Below, one piece after another: positions 6,082 to 18,392 of a stretch of 18,392 bases of DNA; within the stretch, counting starts at the first letter, position 1; every line of letters starts with the position of its first letter. The DNA comes from Bacteroidota bacterium. GTDB lineage: Bacteria > Bacteroidota > Bacteroidia > Chitinophagales > Chitinophagaceae. The notes under the pieces were generated by a model. That model made no database searches. It saw only the letters and a program-made list of their open reading frames with translations, and was not told where the DNA came from. Location: the NCBI GenBank assembly GCA_023396345.1, contig JAEWWO010000043.1, forward strand, positions 1-18,392, in the 5' to 3' direction. Both the position numbers and the translations under genes were made by a program.

Positions 6082-7179
6082 ATGAAACGTGTATTAGTTG
6101 CTACCGGCGGTGGTGATTGTCCGGGTTTAAATGCGGTTATCAGAGGCATTGTGTACAGAGCAGCCCGTGAAAAAGACTGGGAAGTGTTAGGAAGCATTCA
6201 ATCTTTTGATGGTATTCTTAAAGATGAAACCGAAGTAAAACTTCTCGATAAAAATGCTGTAAGAGGTATACACTATCAGGGAGGAACTATTATAGGTACA
6301 ACAACTAAGGGCGGACCTTTTGCCTGGCCTGTAAAAAAAGAAGACGGAACTTTTGACTTTGAAGATCGCTCGCAATATATGATTGATAAATTGAAAGACA
6401 TGGGAGTGGAAGCTGTGATTAGTATTGGTGGTGACGGCTCTCAGCGTATTTCTAAAAAATTGCATGACAGAGGATTGAATATAATCGGCGTGCCTAAAAC
6501 AATTGATAATGATTTAAAGGCTACTGATTTTACTTTTGGTTTTCAGACGGCAGTTGAGATTGCTACCGATGCCGTAGATAAATTGAATACTACTGCAGCA
6601 AGTCATAACAGAGTATTGATTCTGGAGGTGATGGGACGCGATGCAGGATGGATAGCCTTAAACGCAGCATTGGCGGGCGGTGCAGAGGTTTGTATCATTC
6701 CTGAAATTCCATACGATATAAAGAAAGTTGTAGAAAGAATACAAAGAAGATACGATAAAGACGGAAGAGGATTTGCCAATATCGTAATTGCAGAAGGCGC
6801 AATGCCAAAAGGCGGAAAAGCTTTGGCGGAAGAGTACGGAGAGTTGGGTAACGAAAATCTGAAACTATCGGGTGCAGCTAACAGACTGGCACACGAACTG
6901 AAAGATAATGGCATTACGGCTGACATTCGTACAACAGTTCTGGGTCATATTCAAAGAGGTGGTATTCCCTGTGCATTTGACAGAAATCTGGCTACTTCGT
7001 TTGGCGTAAAAGCTTTTGAAATGGTGCTTGAACAACAGTACGGACAAATGGTGGCTTACCGCAATTTTGAAGTTGTTTCTGTGCCATTGGAGGAAGCCAT
7101 TGGTTCGCAAAAACTTGTTGACCCCGATTCGCAGATGGTGCATACCGCAAAAGGTGTGGGCATTAGCTTCGGAGATTAG
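6082..7179 (+). CDS. pfkA: 6-phosphofructokinase, probably ATP-dependent (group III type)
   Basis: It phosphorylates fructose 6-phosphate to fructose 1,6-bisphosphate, the committed step of glycolysis. At 365 aa it is longer than E. coli PfkA (320), as usual for the group III enzymes that include PPi-dependent forms. Motifs are TGGGDCPGLNAVIRG (8-22), ISIGGDGSQ (113-121), PKTIDND (138-144, with the likely catalytic base Asp142), MGRDAGWIAL and GHIQRGG. Donor choice is read from two sites. Gly in GGDGS favours ATP, whereas PPi enzymes carry Asp. Lys139 before TIDND is usual in PPi enzymes and also in group III ATP enzymes. The prediction is ATP, with some doubt. The start Met directly opens the first beta strand. 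The gene is followed 10 bp later by the broken toxin fragment. Confidence 0.93.
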   Translation: MKRVLVATGGGDCPGLNAVIRGIVYRAAREKDWEVLGSIQSFDGILKDETEVKLLDKNAVRGIHYQGGTIIGTTTKGGPFAWPVKKEDGTFDFEDRSQYMIDKLKDMGVEAVISIGGDGSQRISKKLHDRGLNIIGVPKTIDNDLKATDFTFGFQTAVEIATDAVDKLNTTAASHNRVLILEVMGRDAGWIALNAALAGGAEVCIIPEIPYDIKKVVERIQRRYDKDGRGFANIVIAEGAMPKGGKALAEEYGELGNENLKLSGAANRLAHELKDNGITADIRTTVLGHIQRGGIPCAFDRNLATSFGVKAFEMVLEQQYGQMVAYRNFEVVSVPLEEAIGSQKLVDPDSQMVHTAKGVGISFGD

Positions 7180-8460: not shown

Positions 8461-8715
8461 TTATTCATAAATATTTTTTCGATGACCCACATTTATTATG
8501 TCAATTAAAAGAATGTTATCGAAAATTTCATAAATGATTCTATAGTCAGCTACTCTAATTCTATAAGCTTCTCTTCCTTTAAGTTTTTTGTATCCAACAG
8601 GTCTCGGATTTTCTGCTAAATTGTATATGGCTTTTTTAATATTTGTATAATATGGTTCAGGAATATTTTCAAGGGCTTTTACAGCCCTTTTTCTTATAGT
8701 AATTCTGTAAGCCAT
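8461..8715 (-). CDS. RelE/ParE-superfamily toxin of a type II toxin-antitoxin pair
   Basis: An 84-aa basic protein. Features typical of the RelE/ParE fold are the N-terminal strand AYRITIRKRAVKALENIP, then a helix, then KKLKGREAYRIRVADYRIIY (about 43-62) and the closing INVGHRKNIYE. RelE members cut mRNA on the ribosome, while ParE members poison gyrase. The DYRIIYEI and GHRKNIY blocks are closer to RelE/StbE-like proteins, but activity cannot be fixed from sequence. The start codon overlaps the antitoxin stop by one base (TAATG), the usual antitoxin-first arrangement, which favours coupled translation. All expected segments are present, so it is probably functional. Confidence 0.87.
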   Translation of the reverse strand: MAYRITIRKRAVKALENIPEPYYTNIKKAIYNLAENPRPVGYKKLKGREAYRIRVADYRIIYEIFDNILLIDIINVGHRKNIYE

Positions 8716-12826: not shown

Positions 12827-14329
12827 TTACTTTTTTACATTCACGTTGTATAAATCAAGTCTTCTGTCTTTCATTGTTTGTACCGAACCAAAATGATGTA
12901 AATCTTTCAGGTGATTCAAATCAACGTCTACAATCAGCGTCATTTCTGTGTTTGGGGTTGCTTCAGCTTTAATGCCGTTGGTAGGAAAAGCGAAATCAGA
13001 GGGCGTGAAAACTGCTGCCTGACCAAACTGAATATCCATGTTGCTTACCTTAGGTAAATTGCCCACGCAACCTGCGATTGCCACATAGCATTCGTTTTCG
13101 ATAGCTCTTGCAGCCGCACAATTGCGCACGCGTGTGTAGGCATTTTGCGTATCGGTAAGATAGGGTACAAATAAAATCTTCATTCCCTGATCGGCTAAAA
13201 TTCGCGGAAGTTCCGGAAACTCAACATCGTAACAAATAACAATACCTATTGGTCCGCAGTCGGTTTCAATTACTTCAATTTTATCACCACCGGTCATGCC
13301 GTAATATTTTACTTCATTAGGCGTGATGTGAATTTTTCTGTATTCTGATATGCTTCCGTCGCGGTGCAGCAGGTAGCTTGTGTTGTAGAGCTTGCCGTCT
13401 TCTTCGGTAGGCATGCTGCCGGCAATAATATTTACGTTGTATGAAATGGCATACTCCGAAATTTTATTTTTTATTTCTTCTGATTTTTTTGCCAGTTCAC
13501 GCATGGCTTCGTGTTCTGCAAGGTGGTTTAAATCGGCAAGTAACGGTGTGTTGAAAAATTCGGGAAAGAGTACAAAATCAGATTTATAATCGCTGAGTAC
13601 ATCTACAAAATATTCAATCTGCTCGTAAAACGCATCGATATTAGCGAATTGACGCATTTGCCATTGCACCAGACCCAAACGAATAGTGCTGTCGGCTAAA
13701 GTATTTTTCTTTTGAGAATAGTAAATGTTGTTCCATTCCATTTGCAGAGCAAAGCCTTTGGATTCCTTGTCGTCTTTCAGATAGTTGGGAAGAATTTGCT
13801 TTACATGAAAATCGTTGGAGAACTGAAAGTTGAGTACCGGATCAAAAATCTCTTTATTGATCACTTTCTTTACATATTCTGTGGGCTTTATTTCCTCGGC
13901 ATGTTTATGATAATTGGGCATTCTGCCACCTATAACAATCGATTTAAGATTCAGTCTTTCGCATAGTTCTTTGCGTGCATCATACATTCTTCTTCCCAGG
14001 CGCAATCCTCTGTAATCGGGATGTACAAACACTTCTATGCCGTACAGTACATCACCCGAGTTGGTGTGGAAACTGAATTTTGCATTATCAAACACTTCTT
14101 CATAGGTATGCTTATCTCCAAGAAATTTATAGCGCAGAATAATGGAAAGTGCCACTGCCACAACTTTTCCGTCAACCTCAACACATATCTGACCTTTCGG
14201 GAAAATATTTAAAAGCCTCTCTATTGTTGCTTTTTTCCATACCTGTGTTTCATAATCATAGGCGCTAATCATGGAATCTATCAACTGGTCGTAGTCTTCT
14301 AATTTTAAATTTCTAACTTCTACTTGCAT
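12827..14329 (-). CDS. Fusion of GNAT acetyltransferase and carbon-nitrogen hydrolase (nitrilase superfamily)
   Basis: A 500-aa two-domain cytoplasmic protein. Residues 1 to about 190 form a GNAT domain: VEVRNLKLEDYDQLIDSMIS opens it, and YGIEVFVHPDYRGLRLGRRM (97-116) holds the acetyl-CoA-binding R-G-L-R-L-G-R turn. Residues about 214-498 form a carbon-nitrogen hydrolase domain with the full Glu-Lys-Cys triad: Glu257 in LFPEFFNTPL, Lys332 in YRKIHITPNE and Cys366 in IVICYDVEFPE. The second half should hydrolyse an amide (omega-amidase or N-carbamoyl type) and the first half acetylate an amine. The substrates are unknown. The same domain pairing is known from other bacteria, often without an assigned role. 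The frame is unbroken across the linker, so this is a true fusion. Confidence 0.9.
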   Translation of the reverse strand: MQVEVRNLKLEDYDQLIDSMISAYDYETQVWKKATIERLLNIFPKGQICVEVDGKVVAVALSIILRYKFLGDKHTYEEVFDNAKFSFHTNSGDVLYGIEVFVHPDYRGLRLGRRMYDARKELCERLNLKSIVIGGRMPNYHKHAEEIKPTEYVKKVINKEIFDPVLNFQFSNDFHVKQILPNYLKDDKESKGFALQMEWNNIYYSQKKNTLADSTIRLGLVQWQMRQFANIDAFYEQIEYFVDVLSDYKSDFVLFPEFFNTPLLADLNHLAEHEAMRELAKKSEEIKNKISEYAISYNVNIIAGSMPTEEDGKLYNTSYLLHRDGSISEYRKIHITPNEVKYYGMTGGDKIEVIETDCGPIGIVICYDVEFPELPRILADQGMKILFVPYLTDTQNAYTRVRNCAAARAIENECYVAIAGCVGNLPKVSNMDIQFGQAAVFTPSDFAFPTNGIKAEATPNTEMTLIVDVDLNHLKDLHHFGSVQTMKDRRLDLYNVNVKK

Positions 14330-14385: not shown

Positions 14386-14754
14386 TTATTTTCCCGGCTT
14401 CATCCTCTTGTTAATTGTTTGCTCGTCTGCGAAATAATAAATGACAACACCTGCAAAATATAATAAAACATCTATATAATCAGCAGTGAATTTATTATTC
14501 CATTTAGGGAAAAAATATTCTGTTATTATACTGATTGATACAGTCCAAAGAATTATTTCCCAAAAGCGAAAAGTATATTTTCTTTTTAACAGCCATTGTC
14601 TTTCCATTTTAATCAGGTGCAACAATATGGGCATTAACAATAATGGATCTAAATAATTATCTGCAGGTTCAAAGTTAATGTTCATCAGCTTTTGAGCCAA
14701 TTGATGCAACAAAAATAAACTCACAGATAGTATGAAAACTGTTTTACTGCTCAT
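14386..14754 (-). CDS. Small four-helix membrane protein of unknown function
   Basis: A 122-aa protein with about four hydrophobic segments (roughly 4-22, 36-48, 65-83 and 92-108) and a basic C-terminus NKRMKPGK. Notable residues are NYLDPLLLMPILLHL in segment 2 and an acidic YIDVLLYF in segment 4. This pattern recalls small conserved Bacteroidota membrane proteins with no proven role. I cannot name a family with confidence. Its start codon overlaps the stop of the upstream small gene by one base (TAATG), so the two are translationally coupled. They follow mfd in one operon. Confidence 0.72.
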   Translation of the reverse strand: MSSKTVFILSVSLFLLHQLAQKLMNINFEPADNYLDPLLLMPILLHLIKMERQWLLKRKYTFRFWEIILWTVSISIITEYFFPKWNNKFTADYIDVLLYFAGVVIYYFADEQTINKRMKPGK

Positions 14755-14996
14755 TAAAAAGCGGCAATAAAAGTAAACAACAAAATTATCAATGCAACAG
14801 GAGAGAACAATATCACTAACAGCATTACAGGTGTTTTAAGCAGTGTGATTATTATTTTCTTAAATACAGAATCATCTTTGTGAGGCGTGTACCAGTTCCA
14901 CAAAGCTCTGAGCCTGTCAATAATCATGTGCCTTACTTCTTCTCCCGTAGTGTGATGTTCTGTATGTTCTTTTTCTCTATGGTCCTGATTGCTCAT
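14754..14996 (-). CDS. Small protein with hydrophilic head and C-terminal membrane hairpin
   Basis: An 80-aa protein of unknown function. The start MSNQDHREKEHTEHH (14996) is preferred over an upstream in-frame Met at 15026, because the longer form would begin inside the mfd coding end. The chosen start lies 5 bp after the mfd stop. The first half is charged and His-rich (DHREKEHTEHHTTGEEVRHM) and is followed by an amphipathic stretch with LRALWNWYTPHKDD. The last 35 residues (KKIIITLLKTPVMLLVILFS onward) are hydrophobic and could form one or two membrane helices, ending exactly at the C-terminus. No close family is recognised. It is coupled to the following membrane gene. Confidence 0.65.
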   Translation of the reverse strand: MSNQDHREKEHTEHHTTGEEVRHMIIDRLRALWNWYTPHKDDSVFKKIIITLLKTPVMLLVILFSPVALIILLFTFIAAF

Positions 14997-15001
14997 TCCG
15001 T

Positions 15002-18000
15002 TTATTTTGGTTTCACCGCATTCCACATTCTCTCAAGGAATAATTGCATGGAAAGCGCAGTTTTAGTATTGTCTACTATCATCATAAAGTTGTTGCCAAC
15101 CTGCTTTAAGCGGGCAATATTTGTGCCTGTTTGCACGAACTGAAGTATATTATTAAAGAGTTCACTTTCAAAATAAGGCGAATCATTTTTATTGATAAAG
15201 TAACACCGCATTTTTGAGTCTTTAAGTATAATCTTCTCAAAGCCAATGTTGGTGCCAGTTTTACGACTTCTGATTACCGCAAATAAATCATCAACCTGTT
15301 TTGGAGGAGGTCCGAATCTGTCTATAAGTTCCTGATAGAATTCTTTTAATTCCTGCTCTGTTTCCAGATTATCCAATCTTGTGTAGAGCGATAATCTTTC
15401 CGTTATACTTTCTACATATTCATCAGGTATTAAAATTTCCAGATCTGTATCTATGGTGCAGTCTGTAACATAATCGTCCTGCTTACTGATTTCTTCTTTA
15501 AAAAGTTCTTTAAAATTATTTCTTTTGAGTTCTCTTATTGCTTCTTCCAGAATTTTCTGATACATTTCAAATCCAATATCCGCCATGAATCCGCTTTGTT
15601 CTCCGCCCAAAAGATTGCCTGCACCGCGTATGTCCAGATCTCGCATTGCTATTTGAAATCCGCTACCCAAATCGCTGAACTGTTCCAGCGTTTGTAATCT
15701 TTTTCTTGAATCCGGCGGCAAGGTACTCATTGGCGGAGCTATGAGATAACAGAATGCTTTTTTGTTGCTCCTGCCTACACGTCCGCGTAATTGATGCAAA
15801 TCGCTCAAGCCAAAATGATGCGCATTGTTGATGATGATGGTGTTTACATTCGGTATATCCACGCCGCTTTCCACGATATTGGTGCACACAAGCACGTCAT
15901 ATTTTCGCTTGATGAAATCCATTATTTTTTCTTCCAGTTCTTTCCCGTCCATTTGCCCATGGGCATAGGAAATGCTCAGGTCGGGACAAAGCGTTTGCAA
16001 CAAAGCACTCATTTCTTTTACGCCTTGTATGCGATTGAAGATAACAAAAACCTGTCCGCCTCTTTCTATTTCAAAGTAAATAGCATCTCTTATAAAATCC
16101 TGATTAAAAGTTTGTACCTCTGTTTGTATTGGCTGCCTGTTTGGCGGAGGTGTGTTAATGATACTTAAATCTCTTGCGCCCATCAGACTAAACTGAAGTG
16201 TACGCGGTATGGGCGTTGCAGTAAGTGTAAGACTGTCAACAGTTGTTTTTATTGTCTTCAGTTTTTCTTTATGTCCCACGCCAAATTTCTGCTCTTCGTC
16301 AACAATCATTATTCCCAGATCTTTGAACTTTACATCCTTGCCTAATAATGCATGTGTGCCGATGATGATGTCTGTTTTACCTTCGGCAAGTTGCTGTAGT
16401 GTTTCTTTTTTTTCTTTGGATGATTTAAAACGATTCAGATAATCAACCTTTACCGGAAATTCTTACAGTCGTTCAGAAAATGTTTTGTAATGCTTATACG
16501 CCAGAATAGTTGTAGGAAACATAATGGCTGCCTGCTTCCCGTCTACTACAGATTTGAAAGCCGCACGAATAGCAATTTCTGTTTTACCAAAACCCACATC
16601 TCCGCAAATCAACCTGTCCATTGGTGCAGGACTTTCCATGTCGCGCTTAACATCAGCCGTTGCTTTGCTTTGATCGGGCGTATCTTCATAAATAAAACTC
16701 GCCTCCAGTTCGGTGTTCATGTAATTGTCCGGCGAAAATGCAAACCCTTTCTGGGCCTTGCGTTCAGCGTAAAGTTTTATAAGGTCAAAAGCAATTTCCT
16801 TTACTTTAGCTTTAGTCTTTTCTTTTAATTTATTCCACGAATCGCTGCCGAGTTTATTTATTTTAGGCACAGTGCCATCTTTGCCTGTGTATTTAGAAAT
16901 TTTATGCAGCGAGTTAATGTTCACGTATAAAATATCCTGATTCTGATAAATAATTCTCACCGCCTCCTGTACGTTTCCGTTTACTTCAAGCTTCTGCAAG
17001 CCGCTGTACACGCCAACTCCATGGTCAATATGGGTTACGTAATCTCCGGGTTGCAATTCTTTTAAAGCTTTTAATGTAAGCGCCTTGCTTTTATTGAAAG
17101 CCTGTTTTACTTTATATTTATGATAGCGCTGAAATATCTGATGATCGGTATAGCAAACTACTTTTAAATCATCATCAATAAATCCTTCGTGAATACTTTT
17201 AGCAATGGGAGTAAACTGAATTTCCGTATTCAGATCGGTGAAAATGCTGTTTAATCTTTCTAATTGTCTGGATTGTTCAGAGAAAATATAAATAGAGTAT
17301 TCTTTCTTTTCGTAAGATTTCAGATTGTCAATCAGCAACTCAAAGTTACGGTTGAAAGAAGGTTGTGATTTTGTATTAAATTCAATTTCAAAACTTGCAA
17401 AGTGAGGCTGGTAGCCAATTTCAATGGTATGACTATTTAGAAAGTGATTTTTTATTTCTGATGAATGGATAAAATCTTCTCTGTTTAAATCTTTCAGAAT
17501 TTTGCTTTCGTCAGGATCATCTTCAAACTCTGTATGCTCTGTTGAAGATTGTTGTTTTTTATTGATGAATGCATCAAGGTCTGCATTTTGTTTGTTTACT
17601 TCCTCTTCAATAATGTCCCAGTCTTTAAGCCAGAAAACTGTGTTTTCAGGAAGAAAGCTGAAGAGAGATATTTTTTCGTCCGACTGAAACTGACTTTCCA
17701 CATTTGGTATAATAGATACCTGCAAAAGTTTTCTTTCGCTAAGTTGTGTTTCCGGATCAAACAAACGAATACTGTCTACATCATTTCCAAATAATTCAAT
17801 TCTGTAGGGTTTCTCGTTTCCAAAAGAATAAATATCCAGTATTCCGCCACGAATGGCAAACTGTCCCGGTTCGTAAACAAAGTCTGTACGCACAAATCCT
17901 TTATCCACAAAGGCTTCGAGTATGCCATCAATATCCAAAGTGTCGTTAACTTTTATATGCAGAATATTTTTACTCAAGGATTGTGGCAAAACCACTTTCT

Positions 18001-18392
18001 CAAAAATAGCTTCCGGATAAGTAACAATTGCTCCTGCCCGGTTTCCGGAAGGACTCGAAAATTTCGTAAGCGTTTCTGTCCGCAACATTACATGAGAAGA
18101 ATTGAGCAGTTCAAAGTTTTTTCTGTTTTTAAAAGATGCGGGATAGTAAAAAATATTTAAGGCGTCAGTAAGACTCTCCAGCGTATTGTGAAAATAGGCG
18201 GCTTCTTCAGCATCATTTAAAATAAAAACATGATTGAAAGTATTCAGTTTTTCATTTTGAAAAACGGATGCAGCAATAAATTCTGTTGCACTTCCAAACA
18301 AGTTTTTCAGATAAATTTTTTCGTTTGAGGCAAAAGAAATCCTGTCTGCAAGCTGTTGCAGGTGGGGGGATGCGGAAAAAGCATTTAATAAA
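15002..18392 (-). pseudogene. mfd: Transcription-repair coupling factor Mfd, interrupted by one in-frame TAA; extreme N-terminus beyond window
   Basis: Mfd removes RNA polymerase stalled at DNA lesions and recruits UvrA. About 1129 codons are visible in one unbroken register, close to the usual ~1100-1150. The frame runs to the window edge (NAFSASPHLQQLADRISFAS opens it). Order: UvrB-like N-terminal domains, the RNA polymerase-interacting CarD-like domain (LQPGDYVTHIDHGVGVYSG), Walker A GDVGFGKTE (about 16577-16603), DEEQ Walker B (16289-16300), TATPIPRTLQFSLMGARDLS, motif VI RGRVGRSNKKAFCYL, GAGNLLGGEQSG and the C-terminal UvrA-gating domain. At 16463-16465 the register reads ...TFSERL-stop-EFPVKVDYLNRF..., where family members usually have Lys. 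The frame does not shift. Either this is a nonsense mutation (a single A-to-T change from AAA would suffice) or a sequence error. As written the motor is split between its ATP-binding motifs. Confidence 0.9.

Follow-up and report, generated by a model that had tools for sequence, protein, structure and literature searches.

Mfd, as represented by the TIGR00580 family and the solved chains 2eyq, 6x26, and 6xeo, comprises a UvrB-interaction domain, the RID, two translocase domains, and TRCF, and the mfd gene of the window (the whole 18,392-nt stretch of DNA analyzed here) encodes the same parts in the same order. A divided mfd has been described before: mfd of Vibrio fischeri ES114 (VF_A0460) was annotated as two ORFs in the first version of that genome, and the correction listed in PMC2330054 merges the two into a fusion. 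Regarding the consequences of Mfd loss, strains of several bacteria lacking the protein displayed 2- to 5-fold lower rates of mutation to rifampicin resistance, in contrast to the antimutagenic role of Mfd under UV, according to the portion of PMC6320318 available to us.

The mfd frame of the window spans 1129 codons on the minus strand (18391 to 15005) and is interrupted at codon 643, where the minus strand reads CTG TAA GAA (16468 to 16460). The frame is otherwise open, running from the window edge to its own TAA; alignment with the relative P0002 places the start such that the first five residues lie outside the window edge. No ambiguous bases occur at the stop site in the assembled sequence. 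The NCBIfam Mfd model is matched up to position 506 before the stop and again from position 508 after it (Table 1), revealing that a single residue was replaced and the register was kept. Scored separately, the N-terminal and C-terminal parts reached 386.7 and 573.4 bits, respectively, each alone below the 800-bit cut-off of TIGR00580. The Mfd domain set, i.e., UvrB-like, RID, and TRCF, is complete, and what the gene lacks is a single uninterrupted translocase chain. Specifically, Walker A (GDVGFGKTE, residues 597–605) lies on one side of the stop and DEEQ (698–701) on the other. The next ATG is codon 695, and a search for ATG, GTG, or TTG in the 51 codons directly after the stop found none, which led us to reject a restart close downstream. 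The original prediction had described an in-frame TAA in mfd, Mfd sequence on both sides in one register, about 50 codons before the next Met, and a cut between Walker A and Walker B; these points were all borne out, and the evidence also supports its view that neither half would function as a motor.

Table 1. Features of the interrupted mfd gene, in window coordinates.
Feature	Coordinates	Strand	Basis
In-frame TAA (mfd codon 643)	16463..16465	-	Sequence and frame reading
mfd N-terminal part, 642 codons	16466..18391	-	TIGR00580 3–506 of 907, E 2.8e-115
Domains of the N-terminal part: UvrB-interaction, CarD/RID, start of the DEAD translocase with Walker A	16466..18391	-	PF17757, PF02559, PF00270
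mfd C-terminal part, same frame, 486 codons and TAA	15002..16462	-	TIGR00580 508–906 of 907, E 1.1e-171
Domains of the C-terminal part: rest of DEAD, Helicase_C, TRCF	15002..16462	-	PF00270, PF00271, PF03461
Patch with F625, K633, and stop 643, all absent from 120 relatives	16463..16519	-	Alignment
Longest ORF with an ATG start after the stop, 435 aa, beginning just before DEEQ	15002..16309	-	Listed from this contig only

The original prediction further held that only the stop codon was wrong, and here the comparison with relatives disagreed. We aligned the read-through window protein, with X at the stop, with the best 120 of 8000 scored relatives, 116 of which exceed 1100 residues (P0018, P0032, P0067, and P0105 are shorter). 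Positions were testable where at least 100 of the 120 relatives had letters; this applied to 1123 of the 1129 positions, and six were skipped for want of letters. Across the testable positions, exactly three window residues have no counterpart among the 120 relatives, namely F625, K633, and the stop (codon 643). Column 625 holds Val and column 633 holds Gln in 120 of 120 relatives, compared with Phe and Lys in the window, 18 and 10 codons upstream of the stop, respectively. The 95 mfd loci retrieved by genome searches all have Val and Gln here as well, and the alignment places the same two residues at these positions in the 6xeo chain (E. coli Mfd). The family positions at which the window departs are the Val before PTT, presumably within motif Ia, and the Gln before His, both in the first translocase domain.

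Column 643 is variable, with Lys in 94, Ala in 12, Glu in 8, Arg in 3, Gln in 2, and Asn in 1 of the 120 relatives. The nearest kin carry Glu (P0002) and Gln (P0003), and among the five nearest there are four Glu and one Gln. As judged from the alignment, Lys is the residue of the broad family and not the local one; the earlier claim that the family usually has Lys is correct broadly and does not extend to the closest relatives.

The three private residues span 19 codons (625–643; 57 nt). With uniform placement assumed and calculated post hoc, the chance that three positions drawn at random from the 1129 would lie this close together is 0.00078, and the chance that both other residues fall within 18 codons of the given stop is ~0.001. 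At least three private residues were present in 63 of the 120 relatives, and in none of these 63 were all of them inside one 19-codon stretch. Two controls give the background: some three private residues fell within 19 codons in 17/120 relatives, whose totals of private residues ranged from 7 to 31, and two departures from invariant columns lay at most eight residues apart in 3/120, each with four to six departures. Compared with the 95 loci, the window departs additionally at 83 and 783, where its residues are common to 9 and 3 of the 120 relatives. Each of the three odd codons is one base away from a codon for a residue seen in relatives, and if single-base paths were followed, at least two of the three would be guanine-oxidation-type transversions. 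This type arises in living cells and, as stated in PMC12390751, also by DNA damage outside the cell, and for that reason it cannot separate an error from a real allele.

The nearest named relatives of the window belong to the Chitinophagaceae, for example, Haoranjiania flava and Arachidicoccus. P0002, an intact relative of 1134 residues, is 99% identical to the window protein over residues 450–1129. The two differ at 11 aligned positions, eight of them outside the patch, and the residue at each of these eight is seen in 1 to 116 relatives. Polarization by P0003 assigned seven residue changes and the stop to the window branch and one change to the P0002 branch, leaving two undecided; a search for the DNA of a nearer relative for polarizing the changes reached at best a protein identity not above 78%. 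Comparison with the nearest mfd genes, proposed earlier as a check, found the relatives intact and the stop absent, and additionally disclosed the two further private residues near the stop.

No stop was found inside mfd in the 150 listed matches of the family search or in any of the 95 relatives' loci read through stops (0/95); the 120 relative proteins, being predicted as uninterrupted, are no test of stop conservation. We also looked for the truncated allele elsewhere. A length-limited search with the N-terminal part, whose limit of 1.75 x 642 leaves out most full-length Mfd, returned nothing close among the best 120 of 7961 matches (73% identity for the best over the full query and 75% for one over part of it); this search did not return the N-terminal part of the window itself, so contig-edge fragments with a like allele may be missed. 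For the C-terminal part, after the window's own ORF (P0240, one member) nothing exceeded 83% among the best 120 of 8000. Mfd matches were obtained in 392 of 394 family genomes at 1e-50 or better and in 378 at 1e-178 or better. In the 16 genomes with no strong match, a TRCF domain was detected in one (a 155-codon frame) and in none of the other 15, with the control genome G117 matching, while guaA was matched in 15 of the 16, partially in some. High contig numbers suggest that these 16 genomes reflect draft gaps, or they represent real losses.

Internal stops were also checked in 16 other window frames, taken start to stop and leaving out a pabA-like piece at the left edge; none had one, which holds by construction for such ORFs. 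Family models cover guaA, pabB, the phosphofructokinase gene, and a DUF2461 gene nearly end to end, and relatives match guaA, the ccmF-like gene, and a GNAT-nitrilase gene over nearly the whole length; the remaining ORFs have partial matches or none. The GNAT-nitrilase gene (12827–14329, minus strand) fuses a GNAT domain to a carbon-nitrogen hydrolase domain; when 60 family genomes were sampled, 10 contained a match at 1e-80. The phosphofructokinase (6082–7179, plus strand) is closest to the PFK_mixed and PRK14071 models; no match at 1e-80 was found in 60 sampled family genomes in a search run without a positive control, and the gene may have come from a different lineage. The gene at 8461–8715 on the minus strand encodes a ParE-like toxin (PF05016), the toxin component of a type II toxin-antitoxin pair. 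The pabB gene overlaps an aminotransferase class IV ORF by 17 bases (1219–1235). In the relative G019, a ccmF-like match (C107:5449–7461, locus L140) contains one internal TAG, an example of an internal stop in a family gene other than mfd.

Two small ORFs with no Pfam match, apparently encoding membrane proteins, follow tightly behind mfd (14386–15026, minus strand). A possible ATG of the first lies five bases past the mfd stop, and the two ORFs overlap by one base (14754). This close spacing and the overlap make their co-transcription with mfd plausible. Small ORFs of this kind were not found behind mfd in the 95 relatives' loci, 87 of which had more than 600 bases of room.

We consider the mfd stop to be probably a local base-call or assembly error, absent from the DNA of the organism. 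This reading is the best supported because the stop sits among three private residues in 19 codons and the allele is listed in no other contig; the tight patch, the near-identical intact relative, and the listing of the allele from one contig together fit poor read support over a short stretch. The window would be a contig of a Chitinophagaceae-like bacterium with an otherwise normal mfd, in which three or more bases within one 57-nt stretch are probably wrong, one generating the TAA and two others generating residues absent from the 120 relatives. Such errors can arise where a stretch depends on one or a few poor reads and the assembler takes that path; we infer that the contig is of metagenome type and that coverage was low and the reads erroneous. 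Counting against an error, the site is ~1.9 kb from the contig end and not at it, and the comparisons of guaA, the ccmF-like gene, and the GNAT-nitrilase gene with their orthologues revealed no further patch of errors. Departures from invariant columns in these three genes numbered two (30 orthologues), five (29), and four (10), respectively, all of them scattered; these neither show nor exclude a second error patch, the orthologues being far more distant than P0002. The excess of changes on the window branch also counts against an error, in that selection mildly relaxed once a real stop had arisen could contribute to such an excess.

Alternatively, and with less likelihood, the TAA could be real and private to this strain, a natural mfd null that perhaps originated in one clustered event that also produced the two missense changes nearby. 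The strain would then be devoid of transcription-coupled repair and of Mfd-driven release of stalled RNA polymerase, and the N-terminal part may still be made, with no working motor. The otherwise open frame, the site free of ambiguous bases, and the seven changes plus the stop on the window branch, consistent with some relaxation, speak for a real null. However, residues with no counterpart in relatives occur only within the 19 codons, and the ordinary decay that follows a stop would scatter them, so that pseudogene decay as the sole cause is disfavored. The listing of the allele from no other contig and the strong Mfd match in nearly all family genomes also argue against a real null. Clustered substitutions can come from one event, which speaks for a real null. 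The specific scenario that at least three substitutions in 57 nt inactivated the mfd of a naturally occurring strain in a single event and that the lineage was caught early appears unlikely to us. Deletion of mfd is tolerated, with viable strains in several bacteria (PMC6320318, consulted in part). The original prediction expected mutator consequences from a recent loss, which is doubtful in light of the lower spontaneous mutation rates of Mfd-less strains in the same source. A real stop would make this strain a natural test of Mfd loss, with fewer, not more, spontaneous mutations predicted outside UV.

Among the three explanations offered originally, base error is thus the best supported and real loss is the less likely one described above, and readthrough has no specific support. 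Readthrough or recoding of the TAA into full-length Mfd would agree with the conserved Mfd sequence on both sides in one register, and we regard it as very improbable. In fact, TAA terminates 13 of the 17 named window frames, mfd included, and guaA and the ccmF-like gene end in TAA where the proteins of relatives end; recoding was rejected because TAA is the usual terminator here. Moreover, the relatives' loci have no stop in mfd, and readthrough leaves F625 and K633 unexplained. A two-chain Mfd, in which a separately started C-terminal part from the ATG at 16309 (a 435-residue ORF) joins the N-terminal part, is scarcely credible, since this ORF begins three residues before DEEQ and lacks a 51-residue portion of the first RecA-like domain, and no such split occurs in the 150 listed matches of the family search, every one of which is free of stops.

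Split genes in contigs are easily taken for gene loss. Looking for other residues with no counterpart in relatives near a stop is a simple check, which in this case favors a local error over biology. With respect to known systems, nothing here is categorically new: an error would leave no feature, and a real stop would add a nonsense allele to a gene that is already well known. The window mfd is unlike described Mfd in that an in-frame stop separates Walker A from DEEQ and in having F625 and K633 for the Val and Gln of relatives. The mfd of V. fischeri ES114 is a precedent for a sequence error in this gene (PMC2330054); that case was a single-nucleotide frameshift, whereas the assembled window presents a nonsense codon accompanied by two nearby missense codons.
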